Shown here in pieces: positions 5,634 to 34,313 of a stretch of DNA of 34,504 bases; positions within the stretch are counted from its first letter, which is position 1; the number at the start of each line of letters is the position of its first letter. Source of the DNA: Candidatus Woesearchaeota archaeon (GTDB lineage: Archaea; Nanobdellota; Nanobdellia; Woesearchaeales; DSVV01); NCBI GenBank assembly GCA_018657385.1, contig JABHXF010000046.1, positions 1 to 34,504 of the forward strand, written 5' to 3'. Below the pieces are notes generated by a model. The model was not told the origin of the DNA. It worked only from the letters and a program-made list of their open reading frames with translations, and made no database searches. The translations under genes were made by a program, and so were the position numbers.

Positions 5634-6251
5634 ATGAAACTAATTAGTCAAGGAGCAGAAGCTAAAATATACTTAACTGAGAATAAGATAGTTAAAGATA
5701 GGATTAGAAAAGATTATAGAATAAAAGAAATAGATGAAAAACTAAGAGGATTTAGAACAAGAAGAGAAGCTAAAATTCTTGGTAAACTAGAAAAGTTTGG
5801 TTTTGTTCCAAAAGTTTTGTATAATGACAAAAAAGAGAAATTAACATTAGAATATTTAGATGGACCTAAGATTAGAGATGTAATTGATGAGTTATTTGTT
5901 AAAGATAAGAAAAAATGTTTTTCTGTTTGTAAAGACATGGCTAAAAAAATAAGATTAATGCATGATAATGATATTGTCCATGGTGATTTAACAACAAGTA
6001 ATATGATTTTATTTAATGATGTTGTTTATTTCATTGACTTTGGCCTTAGCCAAGTCTCAACAAAAGATGAAGACAAAGCAGTTGATTTACATTTATTAAA
6101 ACAAGCTTTAGAAAGTAAACACTATAAAATATGGGAAGCTTGCTTTAAAGTGATTGCAAAAGAGTATGGAAAATCAAAAAACAATAAAGAAGTTCTTAAT
6201 AAATTAGAAAAAGTTGAAGCTAGAGGCAGAAATAAGAATAAAGGAAGCTAA
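5634..6251 (+). CDS. bud32: Bud32 / KEOPS-associated atypical kinase
   Basis: Small atypical protein kinase/ATPase of the KEOPS complex, which with Kae1 makes the N6-threonylcarbamoyl-adenosine modification at tRNA position 37. It begins directly with the glycine strand (LISQGAEAKIY, 3-13) and has an invariant-type Lys21, the RTRREAKIL segment (41-49), the catalytic loop HGDLTTSN (116-123), the metal-binding DFG (135-137) and a basic tail (EARGRNKNKGS) like the archaeal RGR tail. Its 205 residues fit stand-alone archaeal Bud32 and no Kae1 domain is fused. Kae1, Cgi121 and Pcc1 are not in this window. A TATA-like TTATTTAAA at 5602-5610 lies about 28 nt before the ATG, so the mRNA is predicted leaderless. 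Confidence 0.95.
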   Translation: MKLISQGAEAKIYLTENKIVKDRIRKDYRIKEIDEKLRGFRTRREAKILGKLEKFGFVPKVLYNDKKEKLTLEYLDGPKIRDVIDELFVKDKKKCFSVCKDMAKKIRLMHDNDIVHGDLTTSNMILFNDVVYFIDFGLSQVSTKDEDKAVDLHLLKQALESKHYKIWEACFKVIAKEYGKSKNNKEVLNKLEKVEARGRNKNKGS

Positions 6252-6334
6252 TTAGTTCAAGTAAATTTAACTTTTATCATTACCTATTCTTCATTAAATA
6301 AATCTTTTTAAACCAACCCATAATTCTTTCATAT

Positions 6335-7342
6335 ATGAATATAGGAATAATAGGCGGTAGTGGAGCAAATAAAGTTATTGAAGCATTAGGTGTAACAGCA
6401 AGTAAAGATAGGATACATCAACCTGATGGAGCAAGAACAATAGATGCAGTTGACTATATCAATTTTAGATATGAAGATCATAAAGTTGTATTCATTTCAA
6501 GACATGGTGCAAACCATAATACAGACCCACTAAGATTAAATCCAACTTTTTTAGTTAAAGCATTAGAAGAATTAGTTGGAACAGATGGATTAATTATTCA
6601 AACAAGTGCATCTGGATGTTTAGATCCTTATGATAAAAAATCAGACACAGGAACTAAACTAGTTGATGAAGGTGGCATTGTTGTTTGCGATGATATTTTA
6701 AGAAGTTTTGGCTATGAAAGCCATTCATTTTCTGGAGAAGGTGGAAGAGATTTACATGCAGTTATTGAAAATGCATATTCTCAACAAGCAAGACAACTTG
6801 CATTAGATGCTATTGCAAAAGTAGATGGAGCTACAGGTTATGATGGTGGGATTTATGTTAATGTTTCTGGAAATCAATTTGAAAGTCCAGCAGAAGTTGC
6901 TGATTTATTTTGTAGACTTGACACACCAAGAATAAGAATAATGGAATTAGAAACAGCATTTCTTGAACATGCAATAGCTCTTCAAAATATAGCAAAATTA
7001 AAAGATGGAAATAAGGCAGCTGGTGATTTATTTAAAAAAAGAGAAGAAAAAACAAGATTTTATGAAAAAAGAATTGAAGTATATGAAAGATTAGCTAAAT
7101 CATTAAGAATAGATCATGCAACTGTTTCAATGAATGCTGCTAAAGAATTATCATTATTAGTTGAAGCAAGATTTAAACATAAAGTATTATTATCATTACC
7201 AGTTAATTATGGTGTTGGATTAATTCCAGGTGAACAAGTAGACCATAAAAGAACAGAAAATGCAATAGAAAATGCATCAGCACCATATATTGCACCTACC
7301 CTAATTAATATGATTAAGATGGCAACACAATATATTAAGTAA
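6335..7342 (+). CDS. Divergent MTA/purine nucleoside phosphorylase family protein
   Basis: Probable phosphorylase of the PNP/MTAP superfamily, which splits a purine nucleoside or methylthioadenosine using phosphate. Family signs are the N-terminal phosphate loop IGIIGGSG (3-10), FISRHGANHNTDPLRLNPTF (53-72, compare SRHG...H..P) and a later NVSGNQFESPAEVADLF that corresponds to the GPxFET-type substrate motif. It is longer than typical MTAP (335 versus about 260-290 residues). The extra length is mainly a basic helical insertion near 205-265 (KLKDGNKAAGDLFKKREEKTR...). The motif GPxFET is altered (SGNQFES), so substrate cannot be assigned. TTTTTAAA at 6305-6312 about 27 nt before the ATG predicts a leaderless mRNA. 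It sits just before the riboflavin genes but has its own promoter. Confidence 0.75.
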   Translation: MNIGIIGGSGANKVIEALGVTASKDRIHQPDGARTIDAVDYINFRYEDHKVVFISRHGANHNTDPLRLNPTFLVKALEELVGTDGLIIQTSASGCLDPYDKKSDTGTKLVDEGGIVVCDDILRSFGYESHSFSGEGGRDLHAVIENAYSQQARQLALDAIAKVDGATGYDGGIYVNVSGNQFESPAEVADLFCRLDTPRIRIMELETAFLEHAIALQNIAKLKDGNKAAGDLFKKREEKTRFYEKRIEVYERLAKSLRIDHATVSMNAAKELSLLVEARFKHKVLLSLPVNYGVGLIPGEQVDHKRTENAIENASAPYIAPTLINMIKMATQYIK

Positions 7343-7436
7343 TTTTTTATTTCTTCTAGATTATTAATTGGATTAATTATTAATTCCCAATGATTATTAT
7401 TAATTATTCGTATACATAACCCATTACTTATTTTTG

Positions 7437-7460
7437 AGTACCATAAAGTATATAAGTACT
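7437..7460 (+). promoter_or_regulatory. rbkR promoter with repeated AGTAC/AGTAT half-sites
   Basis: AGTAC (7437-7441), AGTAT (7447-7451) and AGTACT (7455-7460) overlap the TATA stretch TATATAA upstream of rbkR. The ribB promoter has ATACT-aag-AGTAT in the equivalent position, so these may be half-sites for the HTH domain of RbkR. The leader after the TATA box is about 15-20 nt and carries GGTGAG before the ATG. Confidence 0.4.
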
Positions 7461-7495
7461 GACATATCCTAAATTACCATTAGGGTGGGTGAGTT

Positions 7496-8221
7496 ATGGA
7501 GACAAAAAGAAAAAATAGCAATAGTATAAATCAAGAATTAGATGGTAACATTCAACATTTGCCATTATTATTATATCTATCGCAAAAGCTTGGCTTGAAT
7601 AAAACTAATATTCTTTCTACTGTTGAAATTGCAAATGACATGAAATTTTCACAACAAACAGCTTCTAGAAAAATGTTAGATTTAGAAGAATTAGGATTCA
7701 TCAAAAGAAAATATTCTCCAAATGGTTTAATGATTGGATTAACTGAAAAAGCTGTTGATTTGTTAAAAGCTAATTATAATCATCTGAAAAATATGTTTGA
7801 TAATTCTAAATCCTCAAAACAAGATAGAAAAATCAATGGGTTAGTAACTTCTGGAATTGGAGAAGGTAAATTTTATGTTCAATTACAAAGATATAATGAA
7901 GAATTTACAAAATTACTTGGCAAAAAACCATTTCCAGGAACATTAAATTTAATTGTTGATAGAGATGAGTATAAAGAATTATTATTAAAAAAAGAATTAG
8001 TTAAAGTTGAAGGTTTTAAAACAAAGGAAAGAAGTTTTGGATGTATCAATTGTTATAAAATAAATGTACAGAATGTTAAGAACAATAAAAGAACAGTTGA
8101 GGCATTCATAATTATTCCAGAAAGAACTTCCCACCCAGAGAATGTTGCAGAAATTATAGCAACAGATTATCTTCGTGAAAAATTAAAAATTAATGATAAT
8201 GACAAAGTAGAGATATTATAA
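7496..8221 (+). CDS. rbkR: RbkR: HTH regulator fused to CTP-dependent riboflavin kinase
   Basis: Bifunctional archaeal protein. The C-terminal half (about 113-241) is the archaeal riboflavin kinase (DUF120), which phosphorylates riboflavin to FMN using CTP; it shows SGIGEGKFYV (119-128), FPGTLNL (146-152), FGCINCYKI and a conserved PERTSHP near 208. The N-terminal half (about 20-95) is a winged helix (STVEIANDMKFSQQTASRKMLDLEELGFIKRK) of the kind that makes RbkR proteins transcriptional regulators of riboflavin genes. The ATG at 7496 follows GGTGAG with short spacing. It is the first of a co-directional run with ribC and ribH. Autoregulation is plausible from the half-sites at its promoter. 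The family is well established; regulation here is inferred. Confidence 0.93.
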   Translation: METKRKNSNSINQELDGNIQHLPLLLYLSQKLGLNKTNILSTVEIANDMKFSQQTASRKMLDLEELGFIKRKYSPNGLMIGLTEKAVDLLKANYNHLKNMFDNSKSSKQDRKINGLVTSGIGEGKFYVQLQRYNEEFTKLLGKKPFPGTLNLIVDRDEYKELLLKKELVKVEGFKTKERSFGCINCYKINVQNVKNNKRTVEAFIIIPERTSHPENVAEIIATDYLREKLKINDNDKVEIL

Positions 8222-25760: not shown

Positions 25761-26630
25761 TCACAAATACTCCTTATTCCACTTCAAAAATCGTTTATAG
25801 ATATATTTTAAGAATTCCCATTCTGTTTTTTTGTCAGCTTGATTTAAGGCATGATAATAAGATTGTCTTTTTTTGTATTCAATAATTAATATAGGAAAAC
25901 CATGTTTATGTAAGATAAAATTCATTATTAACCTTGTTATTCTCCCATTGCCGTCTCCAAAAGGATGTATTTTAACAAATCTATAATGTGCTTTTGCAGC
26001 TAACTCTACAGGATGTATAGAAGGAGATCTCTTTTTTTCTTTATTATACCATTTGATGAAATCTTTCATAAGTTGTGGAATATCTTGCCAATCAGGACAT
26101 AAATAATTTCCAACTTTAACTAAATATTCTCTATAAATTCCAGCCATGTCTGGCTTTGATTCTTTAAAAACATCTAAATGCCATTTCATAATCAATTTAA
26201 TAGAAAGCTCATGGTATTTATTTCCCATGATATCATTAAATACTTTTGTGTGATTCATTGACTCCATAATATCTCCAAATGGTTTTGTTGGAGTAATTTT
26301 ATAATGTATCAATCTCCTTGTCTCATCTAATGTTATAGTAGATCCTTCAATTGCATTTGTATTATATGTAAAATCTATTGCTTGTTTTTCAATAATCTTT
26401 TTTTTGACTGATTCTGGAATTTTTTTCCAATTTTTCAAGTAATTATTCTTAATTAAATCAAATTTTTTAAAAATTGTTTGAGAATTTATTTGTCTTAAGA
26501 AATCATCTTTAATCTTTTCAATGTTTTTAGGAATGGATTTACCTAAATAAAGGTCCTTTGAATTAAGATCCCCATCTATTTTATACACATGTTGTAGGTA
26601 AAAGTAACCATGTTTCTTTACTATTTCCAT
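25761..26630 (-). CDS. Fic-domain protein (AMPylase-type)
   Basis: Fic proteins usually transfer AMP or a related group from a nucleotide to a hydroxyl of a target protein. The full catalytic motif HPFGDGNGR is at 222-230 with catalytic H222. The autoinhibitory motif TNAIEG (91-96, fitting [S/T]xxxE[G/N]) is present upstream, so this is a self-inhibited class II type enzyme with a helical N-terminal Fic_N region (about 35-100). The first 30 residues form an extra small domain (KHGYFYLQHVYKIDGDLNSKDLYLG). No antitoxin gene adjoins it. The leaderless promoter TATA (26651-26660, minus) sits inside a 13-bp inverted repeat. The target is unknown. Confidence 0.93.
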   Translation of the reverse strand: MEIVKKHGYFYLQHVYKIDGDLNSKDLYLGKSIPKNIEKIKDDFLRQINSQTIFKKFDLIKNNYLKNWKKIPESVKKKIIEKQAIDFTYNTNAIEGSTITLDETRRLIHYKITPTKPFGDIMESMNHTKVFNDIMGNKYHELSIKLIMKWHLDVFKESKPDMAGIYREYLVKVGNYLCPDWQDIPQLMKDFIKWYNKEKKRSPSIHPVELAAKAHYRFVKIHPFGDGNGRITRLIMNFILHKHGFPILIIEYKKRQSYYHALNQADKKTEWEFLKYIYKRFLKWNKEYL

Positions 26631-28825: not shown

Positions 28826-30124
28826 TTATTCTGCTAATGGATCATTCATTTTACCCATGAACAAAATGCTTCCAGTTGACTTCTCCTGTATCATAAATAC
28901 AAAAGGATGGTCAGCCTTAAATATGGTTTGTGGAGCAGGCATTGCTGAAGTAACTTTAAAACTAACAGCTGTTGCAGCTGCTGCCTCTGTTCCTTTCTCA
29001 TTAACTTCAACAAAAGCTTTGTGTAAAACATTACTAATGTAAAGATCTGTTGTCCCATCTAACCCAGAAAAGTCAGCACCTGGCCAAGTAAATGCCTTTG
29101 TCATTCCCAATTGAATTAAATGATCATTTAAGCCATATTTTGTTTCAAATGTAAACCTTGGAAAATAGATTATAACATGTTCCTTAGACATGCTATTTTT
29201 GACTTCAACTAATTTTACAGGATCAAAATATTCCTCAACTACACTTGCATCAAAAATACCTGTTTCATCAACTTTAGGCAAAAACACAAGCATTGATAAT
29301 TCTTCCCCTTGATAAGGCATTTCTAACACTTGTATTTCATCATTTTCCATGTAATTAAACTTAAACTCATCTTCATTCAAATACATCATATCTACTTCTT
29401 TTTGACCATTTGGAGTTTTGAAAAACATATCTTTGGTATCACTTTTATCAAACTCATACTTCCATTTTCCTTTAAAATAGATTGCGTTTGTTAAAACTAA
29501 TCTTGTTTGTGAATCTAAACTGGATATAATATTTTTGATTTTATTATTTGTATTGTCTTCCACCCAATCATTAATTTCCTTAACTGATTTTTTGTTTTCA
29601 TTAACAAAATCAAGATTAGCATTTGTTCCACCATAATACCTCCCAATTACGTTGAGATAATCAGGCAAAAAAGAATAATCGTGTTGAGCCCAAAAAGCAT
29701 TTGCAACATTTAGTTTGTATTCTTTTTCTTCTTCATTGAATACATTATTCAATTTTGCAAACGATGATCTCAACAGATTATAATCTTCAGGAAGATGCAA
29801 AACATTTCTCATTTCTTCTTCTGTTTCTCCATTTGCTCCTTCATAAGCCATTGCTAATGCACTAGAAATACTATATGGAGAAAAGAAAATATTTTTTGTA
29901 CTAGCACTATTTGCTTGATTTAACTGTTCATACATTTCAAGAGCAAATTCATTATTACCTATAACAACTTGAGCAACACCCTCAGCAGTTGCTTGGCTAT
30001 CATCAGTGGGTTGACCTTCATAAGGTGCTAAATTATCATAAGACACCTTATTGTCACATCCTAAAATAAAAATACTGAAAACAACCAAACTCATTAAGAT
30101 TATTGTAAACATTTTATTATTCAT
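28826..30124 (-). CDS. Lipoprotein serpin (inhibitory type)
   Basis: A 432-residue serine-protease inhibitor of the serpin family. The start at 30124 follows GGTGAT by 5 nt; the in-frame TTG at 30136 is rejected. The N-terminus is a signal peptide ending in a lipobox-like FILGC, so it is probably lipid-anchored outside the cell. Serpin signatures include FFSPYSISSALAMAYEGANG, LTNAIYFKGKWKYEFD, ISNVLHKAFVEVNEKGTEAAAATAV and KADHPFVFMI. The reactive-loop hinge (EKGTEAAAATAV) has the small residues needed for loop insertion, so it should inhibit. Counting from the hinge Thr (P14), P1 falls on Thr or Ser in KVTSAMP, arguing against a trypsin-like target. Confidence 0.95.
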   Translation of the reverse strand: MNNKMFTIILMSLVVFSIFILGCDNKVSYDNLAPYEGQPTDDSQATAEGVAQVVIGNNEFALEMYEQLNQANSASTKNIFFSPYSISSALAMAYEGANGETEEEMRNVLHLPEDYNLLRSSFAKLNNVFNEEEKEYKLNVANAFWAQHDYSFLPDYLNVIGRYYGGTNANLDFVNENKKSVKEINDWVEDNTNNKIKNIISSLDSQTRLVLTNAIYFKGKWKYEFDKSDTKDMFFKTPNGQKEVDMMYLNEDEFKFNYMENDEIQVLEMPYQGEELSMLVFLPKVDETGIFDASVVEEYFDPVKLVEVKNSMSKEHVIIYFPRFTFETKYGLNDHLIQLGMTKAFTWPGADFSGLDGTTDLYISNVLHKAFVEVNEKGTEAAAATAVSFKVTSAMPAPQTIFKADHPFVFMIQEKSTGSILFMGKMNDPLAE

Positions 30125-30220
30125 AATTATCACCAATTTAACAGTAGAACAAGCTTTTATATAAAGATATTGATGAGTTTGAATTGAGTTGAAGTTAAAT
30201 AAGAAAATAAAAAATTCATG

Positions 30221-30259: not shown

Positions 30260-31111
30260 TTATCTTTTCCTAATACTAAATGCACCACTTGGCAAAGCCC
30301 TGATAATATCATCTAATTCTCCACCAAATTTCTTTCTAACTTTTTTAGCAATATCACTTACTTTATCTTTACCTTGTTGTAATACAATAAAATCTTTTGT
30401 TTGATTTGAAATAGCAGATTCAGGTCCAGATATAACTATAATAACTTTTTTACCATTTTCATCAAATTCTTTAATACCTATTGCAACTTCCATTTTACCA
30501 GCTTTCATATAAGTTGTTTTTCCACGTATCATAAATGCTCCTTTTGGTAAAAACTCACCAGTATTTGCAGATTTAGTAACTTGTTCAGGTAAAACATGAA
30601 ATACTTCAGATGCTGACATTCCTAACTTCCATGCCCTACTATATACAACTGTTGCATTTGCAACCTCTTGTAATGTTATTTCAGTTGGTTTTTTTGTTGT
30701 TTTTGTTTCTTTACCATCCTTAATCTTTATCTTACTTTTCACAACAAAGAATGGGGAACCACTCATATCAGTATGAAATACAATATCATCATTATCTGTA
30801 TGTTTTTTAATAACAATCTCATTAGTAGTAGCATCTCTCCCCCCTATTACTAAAAATCCCTCAGAAGAAACAAACCATCTAAACTTTTCATACCAATGTT
30901 TTTTTATTCTTTTGTTTGCTGCCTTTTTCTGCTTTTCATTTTCCAATACTTGTTCTTCCTCAAACTTAGCTTTTTCTTTCTCAAGCTTTTTCTTACTTTT
31001 CTCAATAGCTTCTAAAGCTCCATCTAGCTTTTTCTTTGCTTTTTTTGACTTTTCAAAGTAGATGGCAGCATTTTCCTGCACTGTTTTGTTAAGTTTAAGG
31101 ATTATCTTCAT
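30260..31111 (-). CDS. NFACT-R domain protein (C-terminal half of Rqc2/RqcH type)
   Basis: A 283-residue protein with a Lys/Glu coiled coil (about 8-70) and an NFACT-R (DUF814) RNA-binding domain (about 72-210; FRWFVSSEGFLVIGGRDATTNE, IVFHTDMSGSPFFVVKS, AWKLGMSASEVFHVLPEQVTK, LPKGAFMIRGKTTY). Full archaeal Rqc2/RqcH homologues are roughly 600-680 residues and have an N-terminal NFACT-N domain plus HhH; here the protein starts at the linker (KLNKTVQENAAIYFEKSKKAKKKLDGA). A leaderless promoter (TTTAAATAATT near 31137-31147, minus) lies about 28 nt before the ATG, so the start is real rather than a truncated frame. A split Rqc2 with the other half elsewhere is likely. Role: ribosome quality control on stalled large subunits. 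Confidence 0.9.
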   Translation of the reverse strand: MKIILKLNKTVQENAAIYFEKSKKAKKKLDGALEAIEKSKKKLEKEKAKFEEEQVLENEKQKKAANKRIKKHWYEKFRWFVSSEGFLVIGGRDATTNEIVIKKHTDNDDIVFHTDMSGSPFFVVKSKIKIKDGKETKTTKKPTEITLQEVANATVVYSRAWKLGMSASEVFHVLPEQVTKSANTGEFLPKGAFMIRGKTTYMKAGKMEVAIGIKEFDENGKKVIIVISGPESAISNQTKDFIVLQQGKDKVSDIAKKVRKKFGGELDDIIRALPSGAFSIRKR

Positions 31112-31212: not shown

Positions 31213-32541
31213 ATGGTATGTATAATAACATTTGCAAGAAGCTGGCAAACTTTGATCGCAGCAAGGGCATTAGGAAAACAAGGAATAACAGTTATCACTG
31301 CTGATAGTGAGAAATTTGCAACTACTTTCTTTTCAAAGTATAGTAAAAATAATTTCATATACACTGATCCTAACGAAAATGAGAACAAATTTGTAAATGA
31401 TTTAATTAAAAAAGCAAAGGAGTATAAAAAAAAATACAATGAAGAAATTATGCTTCTACCTGTTCATAAAGAAACATATACAATTTCTAAATATAGAAAA
31501 AAGTTAAGTAAACATATGAAAATATGTGTTGATGATTATGATAAAATAATGAGTGTACATAATAAAAGAAAAATACCTTTGCTTCTCAAAAAATATAAAA
31601 TACCTACCCCTAAAACAATAATAGTAAAAGATATTTTAGAATTATACAAAATAACTCCAAAACTAAATTTTCCTGTTTTTATTAAACTTCCTGAATCAGC
31701 TGCATCAATTGGACTAGTTAAAGTTAAGAATAGAGATGATTTAATCTATGAATTTAGTAATGCTGTTAAAAAATCTAAATTAAAACCAAGAAATTATCCT
31801 ATAATCCAAGAAGGTGTAGGTGGTGAAGATTATTGTGTAACTGCCTTGTTTAACAAAGGTAAAAAAAGAGCAATGATGACTTATAAGAATATAAAAACAT
31901 ATCCATACAAAAGTGGTCCAAGTGTATACAGAAAAAATGTCAACGCAGAAGAGATGGAAAAGATTGCCACAAAATTTCTTGAAAAAATCAAGTGGCATGG
32001 ACTTGCTGAGATTGATTTTAGAATGGGATCAGATAAAAAACCAGTTTTAATAGAAATCAATCCTAGATTTTGGGGTGGTCTGAATCAATCAGTAGCTTCA
32101 AATGTAAATTACCCATTATTAGCTTATGAAATCGCAGTAAATGGTGATTGTAAAACTATTAAAAAATATGATAAAAGTGTTAGAACTGAAAATCTCACAA
32201 CAGCTATATTAGCACTCTTTGATGAGATTAACAAAGATGAAAAAAAGAAAAAAGAGATTAAAAAGTTAGAAAAACATTGGAAAAAAGCATTTAAATCAAA
32301 CTTTAAGCTGCATATTTCTGAATTTTTCAAACAAGTTAAACATATCAACAATAAAAAATATACCAGGAAAAAAATTAAAGAGTTTGTTAAAAGAAGAAAT
32401 AAAATAACAAAAGATGATATTATTGATGTCAAAGATCCTTTTGTTGTTCTTGGAGTTCTTTATCCAATCCATTTATTTTTAAAATATGGAAAAGTTGACA
32501 AAAAAATGCTAACTGGTGAAGGATCAGGAAAGAAAAAATGA
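31213..32541 (+). CDS. ATP-grasp carboxylate-amine ligase family protein
   Basis: A 442-residue ATP-grasp enzyme expected to join a carboxylate to an amine through an acyl-phosphate. The N-terminal pre-ATP domain (about 1-115) begins ITFARSWQTLIAARALGKQGITVITAD. The ATP-grasp core shows FPVFIKLPESAASIGLVKV (153-171, with K158), the adenine-binding PIIQEGVGGEDYCVT (196-210) and the metal-binding EINPRFWGGLNQS (281-293). The layout is like PylC, D-aspartate ligase or carbamoyl-phosphate-synthase-like peptide ligases. The C-terminal extension (about 320-442) is Lys-rich and helical with no family seen. It overlaps the next gene by 4 bp (ATGA), implying translational coupling. Substrates are unknown. 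Confidence 0.88.
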   Translation: MVCIITFARSWQTLIAARALGKQGITVITADSEKFATTFFSKYSKNNFIYTDPNENENKFVNDLIKKAKEYKKKYNEEIMLLPVHKETYTISKYRKKLSKHMKICVDDYDKIMSVHNKRKIPLLLKKYKIPTPKTIIVKDILELYKITPKLNFPVFIKLPESAASIGLVKVKNRDDLIYEFSNAVKKSKLKPRNYPIIQEGVGGEDYCVTALFNKGKKRAMMTYKNIKTYPYKSGPSVYRKNVNAEEMEKIATKFLEKIKWHGLAEIDFRMGSDKKPVLIEINPRFWGGLNQSVASNVNYPLLAYEIAVNGDCKTIKKYDKSVRTENLTTAILALFDEINKDEKKKKEIKKLEKHWKKAFKSNFKLHISEFFKQVKHINNKKYTRKKIKEFVKRRNKITKDDIIDVKDPFVVLGVLYPIHLFLKYGKVDKKMLTGEGSGKKK

Positions 32542-34313
32542 AATATTACTATAAATTCCTTAAAAAACATTTTAATAAAAATAACATAATACCATTTATA
32601 ATATCATTTGTTCTTACTGCTGCAACATTTGTTGCAATAGTTACAAGACTTTTTTATCCATATCATGTACATGTTGGTCTTGGTTTTTATCTTGCATCGT
32701 GGGTTATTTACATTTACCCTTTTATCCATCATTTAAGTGTATCAAGAATTAAAAAAAATAAAAAATTTAAATTTTTCAAAAAATATTATATCTTTTTAAT
32801 AGGTATTACGTTTTTCTTAATATTCCTATATTTAATCTTTTCATTATTTCCAGTCAATAATATTAAGATTGCTAAGTCTGAAATACCAGAACTAATGGAA
32901 AAACTAGACAAAGATACAATATATCTTAAAGAAACTTTAGTATCATTAGATAAATCTTATGAAGAACTTATTAATTCAGAGTTATTAGGTTTAGATATGA
33001 AAAAAGCAACTCCTGAAAATACATATGAACTAAAAACTCTTTTTGCAAAAGTTGTTGATCATATAATAATATTAGAAAACTTTAATGAAGAATACAAGTA
33101 TTTTTATCAAATTAATTACTTTAAGTATCCTGAACTTAATATAAGAGCATTTGTTATTGCATATACATCTTACCTTACAAAATACAAGGTAACAATAAAT
33201 ATTGCAAATGAAATAAATAACAACTATTTTGTTGAGATGCAATTAAATGAAGTTTTGCCAGGGACTAACATATCTAATTCATATATGATATTAAAAAATA
33301 ATTTATATTATCCATCTACATCTGCAAAAATTGAAGCAGGTAACGCATATATAAAATATATTAAACAATTTCATTCACTTAATGATGATATTATAGAACT
33401 TATGGAAGTTGATTCAAAAGATTATTATGATTTACTTGGTGATACAGGTAAAATTTCATACATTAAACTTGACAGCATATTTGATACATTTGAAACACAT
33501 ACAATGGATCAATGGTTACCTATACAAAAAAGTGTCAGTAATCTCATGGGAGAAACAAGAATCAAAACAAGGCATCATAATATAATCACAATTGAAAGAA
33601 TTCAAGAGGTTTATGAAAAACTTGAACCAGGAGACATTATTTTCCAGAGAAGAAATTGGTATGTAAGCAATGCAGGTATGCCAGGATTCTGGACACATGC
33701 AGCATTATATGTTGGTACTTTAGATGTATTAGATGAATATTTTGAAGAAGAAGCAAAAGAATTATTAGGGATGAAAGTTAGTGAATATGTCAAGATAAAC
33801 TTCCCTAAATTATATGAAGATAAAAATAAGTTATATGAAGGGAAATATCCTTATACTACTATAGAAGGTAAAGCTGAAGGAATTATAATTCTTCCACTTG
33901 AAGTATCTGCAACATCAGATTATTTTGCAGCAATTAGGCCAAAACTTTCTAAGATGGATAAGCTTAAAGCCTTGCTTTATACATTTGATAATTATCTTAA
34001 GCCTTATGACTATAATTTTGATTTTGCATCAGAGGATGTCTTAGTATGTTCTGAACTTGTATATAAAGCTTATTTGCCGTCAGATAGTAAAGAGGGATTA
34101 AACTATGAATTAGAAAAAATAGCTGGAAGATGGATGCTTGCACCAAATGATATGGTCAGAATTTTCAACATGAAATATGGGACAAGCGAAGAACAAAATG
34201 AATTTGTATTTTTTATTGATGGAAATGAAGAAACCTTTAATTCTGAGTATAAAGGTGTTGAAGAGTTTAGAGAATCATGGAAAAGATCTAAATACACTAT
34301 TTTATTGGATTAA
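32538..34313 (+). CDS. Membrane-anchored permuted papain-like hydrolase (YiiX/C92 type)
   Basis: A 591-residue protein with three N-terminal hydrophobic helices (about 18-38, 48-66 and 83-105), an alpha-helical middle (110-355) and a C-terminal papain-like domain with permuted catalytic order. The domain starts KLEPGDIIFQRRNWYVSNAG (from about 361), has the catalytic His in WTHAALYVG (H387) and the catalytic Cys in VLVCSELVYKAYL (C504). This pattern matches the YiiX/YebB-like (peptidase C92, DUF830) amidase/lipid hydrolase group. The ATG overlaps the ATP-grasp stop by 4 bp. A ligase coupled to an amidase-like hydrolase suggests making and trimming or attaching an amide-linked product at the membrane; this is inference. 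Confidence 0.85.
   Translation: MKYYYKFLKKHFNKNNIIPFIISFVLTAATFVAIVTRLFYPYHVHVGLGFYLASWVIYIYPFIHHLSVSRIKKNKKFKFFKKYYIFLIGITFFLIFLYLIFSLFPVNNIKIAKSEIPELMEKLDKDTIYLKETLVSLDKSYEELINSELLGLDMKKATPENTYELKTLFAKVVDHIIILENFNEEYKYFYQINYFKYPELNIRAFVIAYTSYLTKYKVTINIANEINNNYFVEMQLNEVLPGTNISNSYMILKNNLYYPSTSAKIEAGNAYIKYIKQFHSLNDDIIELMEVDSKDYYDLLGDTGKISYIKLDSIFDTFETHTMDQWLPIQKSVSNLMGETRIKTRHHNIITIERIQEVYEKLEPGDIIFQRRNWYVSNAGMPGFWTHAALYVGTLDVLDEYFEEEAKELLGMKVSEYVKINFPKLYEDKNKLYEGKYPYTTIEGKAEGIIILPLEVSATSDYFAAIRPKLSKMDKLKALLYTFDNYLKPYDYNFDFASEDVLVCSELVYKAYLPSDSKEGLNYELEKIAGRWMLAPNDMVRIFNMKYGTSEEQNEFVFFIDGNEETFNSEYKGVEEFRESWKRSKYTILLD

Follow-up and report, generated by a model that had tools for sequence, protein, structure and literature searches.

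The genome of a Candidatus Woesearchaeota archaeon was found to carry two overlapping genes, the first predicted to encode an ATP-grasp carboxylate-amine ligase and the second a long, membrane-anchored protein of the permuted papain-like Peptidase_C92 family. In the order of this archaeon the genes overlap on one strand in each of the four genomes that hold both. The pair is read here as a cytoplasmic ligase and an extracytoplasmic acyl-hydrolase or acyltransferase that would act on the same envelope- or lipid-linked amide, to which we assign a probability of about one half. The stretch of DNA analysed, here called the window, is 34,504 nucleotides long and constitutes the whole of contig G000:C14 from a 1.54-Mb genome.

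An overlapping gene pair in Woesearchaeales

The ligase gene (442 aa) occupies positions 31213–32541 of the forward strand and is followed on the same strand by the gene for the long C92 protein (591 aa, 32538–34313), such that the stop of the former and the start of the latter share the ATGA at 32538–32541 (junction sequence AAAAAATGAAATATT). The overlap had been proposed in an initial annotation made from the sequence, and both reading frames were recovered at these positions. An identical 4-base overlap is present in loci L081 and L082. The contig ends 191 bases past the pair, and its downstream side is therefore unseen. Contamination is an unlikely source of the two genes, as their neighbours are of archaeal type (RqcH, CTP-dependent riboflavin kinase) and homologues occur in independent Woesearchaeota bins.

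Within the order, 353 archaeal genomes were surveyed. A strong orthologue of the ligase (E below 1e-100) was detected in six of them (G000, which is the genome of the window, G010, G244, G252, G238 and G084) and a long C92 in five (G000, G010, G184, G244 and G252), a weak fragment matched in G168 being left out of the count. The ligase gene precedes the C92 gene with the ATGA overlap in G000, G010 and G244, and in G252 the order is reversed and the overlap kept, so that it is conserved in genomes from three families within the order, with the ligase gene leading in two. Ligase identities to the window protein are 66% in G010 (L081), 58% in G244 (L082) and 36% in G252 (L103). Co-occurrence, with the ligase clade present in four of the five long-C92 genomes, has a hypergeometric probability of 1.2e-7 that is uncorrected for kinship or block transfer, and adjacency in all four strengthens the evidence for pairing. 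The genes flanking the pair differ among the contigs and none match other genes of the window; adjacency that recurs in G010, G244 and G252 in such different surroundings is not due to chance. The pair is thus kept in relatives (4/353), if patchily, and its absence from all relatives, named beforehand as evidence against a functional pair, was not what the neighbourhoods revealed.

Each gene is also found without the other. G184 has a long C92 and a true Peptidase_C26 (C26) but no ligase match, G238 and G084 have the ligase and no long C92, and the sole genome of the same genus has neither. No additional long C92 was found in a sample of 371 genomes of the phylum, where the other matches were weak, partial and mostly to small C92s; the small C92s (about 240 aa) of other Woesearchaeales have no ligase nearby. 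A single-sequence search of the genome contigs with the C92 protein gave no matches. In G238 a radical-SAM gene overlaps the 3' end of the ligase gene (L083:7305–8690), and its product has sub-threshold similarity to TrsS and to the tetraether lipid synthase Tes.

Features of the two proteins

Several Pfam models matched the first protein above cut-off, namely ATPgrasp_Ter (PF15632, 4e-13), ATP-grasp_3 (PF02655, 3e-11) and Dala_Dala_lig_C (PF07478, 2e-9), in agreement with the ATP-grasp identity read earlier from its motifs, and the RimK model gave a partial match of 20.8 bits (cut-off 21 bits). A profile search brought up 2pn1, CPSase, 4dim and an L-amino acid ligase. AlphaFold2 gave a good model (pLDDT 86.7, pTM 0.84), for which the Foldseek matches include 2pn1 (7e-17), biotin carboxylases, RizA and PylC; a C-terminal helical extension covers approximately aa 328–434. 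An alignment search retrieved 205 relatives. K118, K158, N283 and R285 are identical in 91/91 relatives, and E281 is kept in 88 of the 91 and replaced by D in the other three. By profiles, by fold and by conservation of the ATP/Mg-binding lysines, E, N and R, the protein belongs to the ATP-grasp family, the enzymes of which make acyl-phosphates and amides, and it is probably a carboxylate-amine ligase that joins amides inside the cell. In the tree the window ligase and those of L081, L082, L083 and L103 form one clade (98/75) beside the entire bacterial set. An archaeal outgroup ligase resides in another gene group (L116:4458–8979), with deacetylase-like, PHP-like, kinase-like and thymidylate-kinase-like genes.

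The sole family matched by the second protein is Peptidase_C92 (PF05708), at aa 362–513 (33621–34076, forward strand) with 39 bits against a cut-off of 27 bits, and the profile of its relatives matches the YiiX structure 2if6 at 5.5e-19. The catalytic domain has the permuted order His387, Glu443, Tyr490, Cys504, and all four residues are identical in every long homologue spanning this region (41 of 41). This confirms the permuted papain domain and the H387 and C504 of the initial annotation, and with the ligase residues above it shows that the catalytic positions, whose loss in homologues was to have spoken against the proposal, are conserved in both proteins. The protein is not a member of the NCBIfam YiiX equivalog NF007458, for which it scores 17.5 bits where 216 are required.

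The AlphaFold2 model of the C92 protein is only fair (pLDDT 66), with the active-site loops, where a hydrophobic S1 pocket or lipid-binding site would be sought, poorly modelled, and Foldseek found no significant match to a solved structure for it, the helical region included. Three N-terminal membrane helices are predicted at aa 14–36, 43–71 and 79–103 (32577–32846, forward strand); the model is consistent with the number originally proposed, and hydropathy gives three spans in the G010 homologue and two in the window protein. They are followed by a helical region at aa 109–298 (32862–33431, forward strand). Structure prediction of segment 110–355, suggested at the outset as a check, gave mostly helix, with confidence between about 117 and 290 (approximately 117–187 and 198–290). 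This region is common to Verrucomicrobiota homologues and was found in the long C92 family only. A lysine-rich loop precedes the third membrane helix, and a charge-rich loop before the last span with few charges after it is seen in archaeal and Verrucomicrobiota long C92s as well as in those fused to PlsC. Judged from hydropathy and charge, the positive charge ahead of the final span, with little beyond it, suggests that the papain domain lies outside the membrane, and the ligase inside.

Hydrolase partners and relatives in bacteria

The relatives of the ligase are mostly bacterial, as seen in a survey of 80 genome loci. In 60 of these a Peptidase_C26 gene (gamma-glutamyl-hydrolase type) is located directly downstream of the ligase gene or, in four cases, fused to it. 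Such loci occur in Planctomycetota, Verrucomicrobiota, Lentisphaerota, Spirochaetota and Alphaproteobacteria; as in the archaeal pair the ligase, here of a sister clade, adjoins a hydrolase, but C26, with the class-I glutamine-amidotransferase fold, stands in place of C92. The fusions are alphaproteobacterial (Ponticaulis, Caulobacter and another; positions 5857–8040 in both L158 and L160, L152:5707–8043 and L157:4048–6198). The C26 partner is PuuD-like (Pfam 8e-46), its best NCBIfam match being gamma-glutamyl-GABA hydrolase, below the cut-off of that model. The locus of an ATP-grasp gene with a downstream C26 is a new observation; literature searches for ATP-grasp together with YiiX, peptidase C26 or Woesearchaeota returned no papers.

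The C26 of Planctomycetota, Verrucomicrobiota and Lentisphaerota is mostly anchored at its N-terminus, where basic residues commonly precede the anchor, which suggests a location outside the membrane; that of Spirochaetota and Alphaproteobacteria has no N-terminal anchor. From these features the hydrolase partner looks extracytoplasmic in the archaeal pair and in PVC-group bacteria. In six Verrucomicrobiota loci a different, short C92 (about 210 aa), carrying the lipobox LSGC in five of the six, is encoded directly upstream of the ligase, and C92 and C26 are kept side by side. A cysteine hydrolase is thus a recurrent companion of the ligase family. Common descent of the archaeal pairing and that with the short C92 found no support, as the long archaeal C92s group apart in the tree, and within the limits set by long branches the adjacency of ligase and C92 probably arose at least twice.

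The bacterial partner brings up reversible conjugation, in which a small soluble amide made by the ligase (an amino-acyl conjugate, for instance, or a gamma-glutamyl one) would be cleaved at the same bond by the hydrolase, nothing lipid being involved. The models are GspSA acting on glutathionylspermidine and PuuA/PuuD acting on gamma-glutamyl intermediates, with the archaeal C92 replacing the bacterial C26. The PuuD-like nature of C26 and its fusion to the ligase in four Alphaproteobacteria agree with this, and replacement would fit the archaeal genomes: no C26 is encoded near the four pairs, and the only C26 matches in the pair-bearing genomes are weak and look like class-I glutamine amidotransferases rather than the PuuD type. 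However, the archaeal C92 and the C26 of the PVC group are membrane-anchored and look extracytoplasmic, and would therefore miss a soluble cytoplasmic product; moreover, the relatives of C92 favour lipids, and C92 and C26 adjoin in Verrucomicrobiota, hence they are not simple substitutes. Reversible conjugation is considered rather unlikely.

The long C92 proved to be a cross-domain family, shared by archaea and Verrucomicrobiota. It was matched in 31 of 196 genomes of one Verrucomicrobiota order, and three ligase-bearing Verrucomicrobiota genomes (G353, G354 and G356) also encode, elsewhere, C92 proteins of 706–741 aa that are homologous over the helical and catalytic regions. Constant co-occurrence of ligase and C92 was rejected, as in the same order ligase matches were three strong and two weak and two genomes were shared. 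Among 45 ligase-bearing genomes reached via other loci, six had a match to the long C92 (A5), one of them to a short C92. Since few genomes share both, and most ligase genomes are without a long C92, the two are not obligate partners.

Several long C92s bear an N-terminal PlsC-type acyltransferase domain (PF01553; tested in L185 and L187, with L194 from Planctomycetota), so that PlsC, membrane helices and C92 are united in single proteins of about 965–1167 aa (L185:3852–6746, L187:4027–6987 and L194:3013–6513). No description of such fusions was found in the papers searched. These proteins of roughly 1000 aa had been considered as ligase fusions, which the identity of the N-terminal domain excluded; likewise, an apparent C26 beside C92 in L187 is GMP synthase, the copy in L186 having the same length and domain position.

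The fusions bear on another explanation, that C92 is an LnsA-like N-acyltransferase which would pass an acyl or isoprenoid-derived group to an amine, the ligase making the amine-bearing acceptor and the pair being wholly biosynthetic. PlsC-fused C92s would fit this, as would LnsA itself: Staphylococcus aureus requires it to N-acylate lipoproteins, and the structural homologue ranked first for it is YiiX (PMC7387801). Against it, the archaeal pair has no adjoining acyl-CoA or fatty-acid gene, and searches of G000, G010 and G252 for PF01553 were negative. As the core lipids of archaea are, in addition, ether-linked, a purely biosynthetic pair seems improbable.

Predicted role and comparison with known systems

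The reading preferred here, of one amide handled on both sides of the membrane, would run as follows. The two genes would form one expression unit, presumably co-translated; working in the cytoplasm, the soluble ligase would activate a carboxylate as acyl-phosphate and couple it with an amine. Anchored by about three helices, the C92 protein would expose its permuted papain domain, with Cys, His and Glu, on the outside of the membrane and there cleave, or transfer via a thioacyl-enzyme of the kind formed by permuted NlpC/P60 enzymes, an acyl or amide bond in a molecule linked to the envelope or to a membrane lipid. The common amide product would thus be made inside and trimmed or transferred outside. 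A lipid connection is offered by the YiiX crystal, which binds fatty acid and led to the proposal of a lipid amidase (PMC3142127), and by the permuted relatives Tox-Act1 and TseH, phospholipases that act on lipids (PMC12994826). Together with LnsA these point to a substrate that is probably membrane-associated. The general idea of the initial annotation, an amide ligase with an amidase or acyl-hydrolase serving a lipid or surface molecule, agrees with the predicted topology and the PlsC–C92 fusions; as an exclusive layout it does not hold, given that the usual partner of the ligase is C26 and most long C92s are without a ligase.

In the literature searched, the ATP-grasp amidoligase survey of Iyer et al. 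2009 aside, no description of an archaeal system that combines the two was found, as had been anticipated. The pair may work in the manner of the Rlo operon and of known ligase–hydrolase pairs, and by the comparisons below would be a member of none. The Rlo operon of Pseudomonas aeruginosa likewise encodes a cytoplasmic ATP-grasp protein (RloC) with an extracytoplasmic hydrolase, the secreted retropepsin-like protease RloA, and a membrane protein, RloB, with an inactive transglutaminase domain; in Pseudomonas loss of the ATP-grasp protein is epistatic to loss of the secreted proteases, which indicates one process and shows that such proteins can act together in the envelope (PMC12239564). However, the Rlo hydrolase is an aspartic protease and not a permuted papain, and RloC is RimK-like (24% identity), whereas the archaeal ligase is nearer to ATPgrasp_Ter, PRK06849 and CPSase-like forms. 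Families of the RloA and RloB type were absent from the neighbouring genes tested, the downstream side lying beyond the contig end. RimK–RimB also combines an ATP-grasp ligase and a peptidase in one locus, but both are cytoplasmic and serve glutamylation of a ribosomal protein, and the RimK model matches the archaeal ligase only in part. In GspSA an ATP-grasp-fold ligase and a papain-like (CHAP) amidase act on one amide bond; it differs in its canonical papain fold, in its ATP-grasp family and in being soluble and fused, whereas the archaeal C92 and ATPgrasp_Ter-type proteins are encoded by separate genes. YiiX/YaeF and LnsA share the permuted His...Cys papain domain, with lipid binding in YiiX, but YiiX is a stand-alone protein of about 200 aa, to which the window C92 adds membrane helices and the helical region.

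Recurrence of the pairing in distant relatives, with each half drawn from a wider family that includes bacteria, hints at unknown surface or lipid chemistry. Tentatively, it could represent an unrecognised inside–outside tailoring system for an amide-linked molecule (a membrane lipid or a surface molecule anchored through lipid), common to Woesearchaeota and PVC-group bacteria, in which the ligase clade would form the amide on the cytoplasmic side and long C92s, in bacteria often fused to PlsC, would hydrolyse or transfer it outside. That the adjacency is instead a horizontally transferred cassette devoid of joint function appears highly improbable: the patchy distribution, the same-genus genome with neither gene and the presence of both families in bacteria would agree with it, but the start–stop overlap persists at 58–66% protein identity and survives reversal of the gene order in G252, and in further lineages the ligase is accompanied by different hydrolases.

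Little is known about the chemistry of lipids and cell surfaces in DPANN archaea, and the bacterial C92 enzymes have no settled substrate. The genetic link of the ligase clade to C92 and C26 hydrolases provides a testable pairing, the PlsC–C92 fusions point to glycerolipids, and bacteria with ligase relatives (Caulobacter, Hyphomonas) are cultivable, so that the gene can be removed.

Other genes of the window, all on the reverse strand, include one for an RqcH-like protein of 283 aa (30260–31111), whose match to archaeal RqcH is confined to the C-terminal part (381–644 of 645), with no N-terminal half at the locus. A serpin (28826–30136; Pfam 4e-119) has a lipoprotein-signal-like N-terminus, unusual for a Woesearchaeon. 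A Fic/DOC family protein is encoded at 25761–26630, and a putative S-layer protein at 221–2551 matches the PACE-CTERM model below cut-off.
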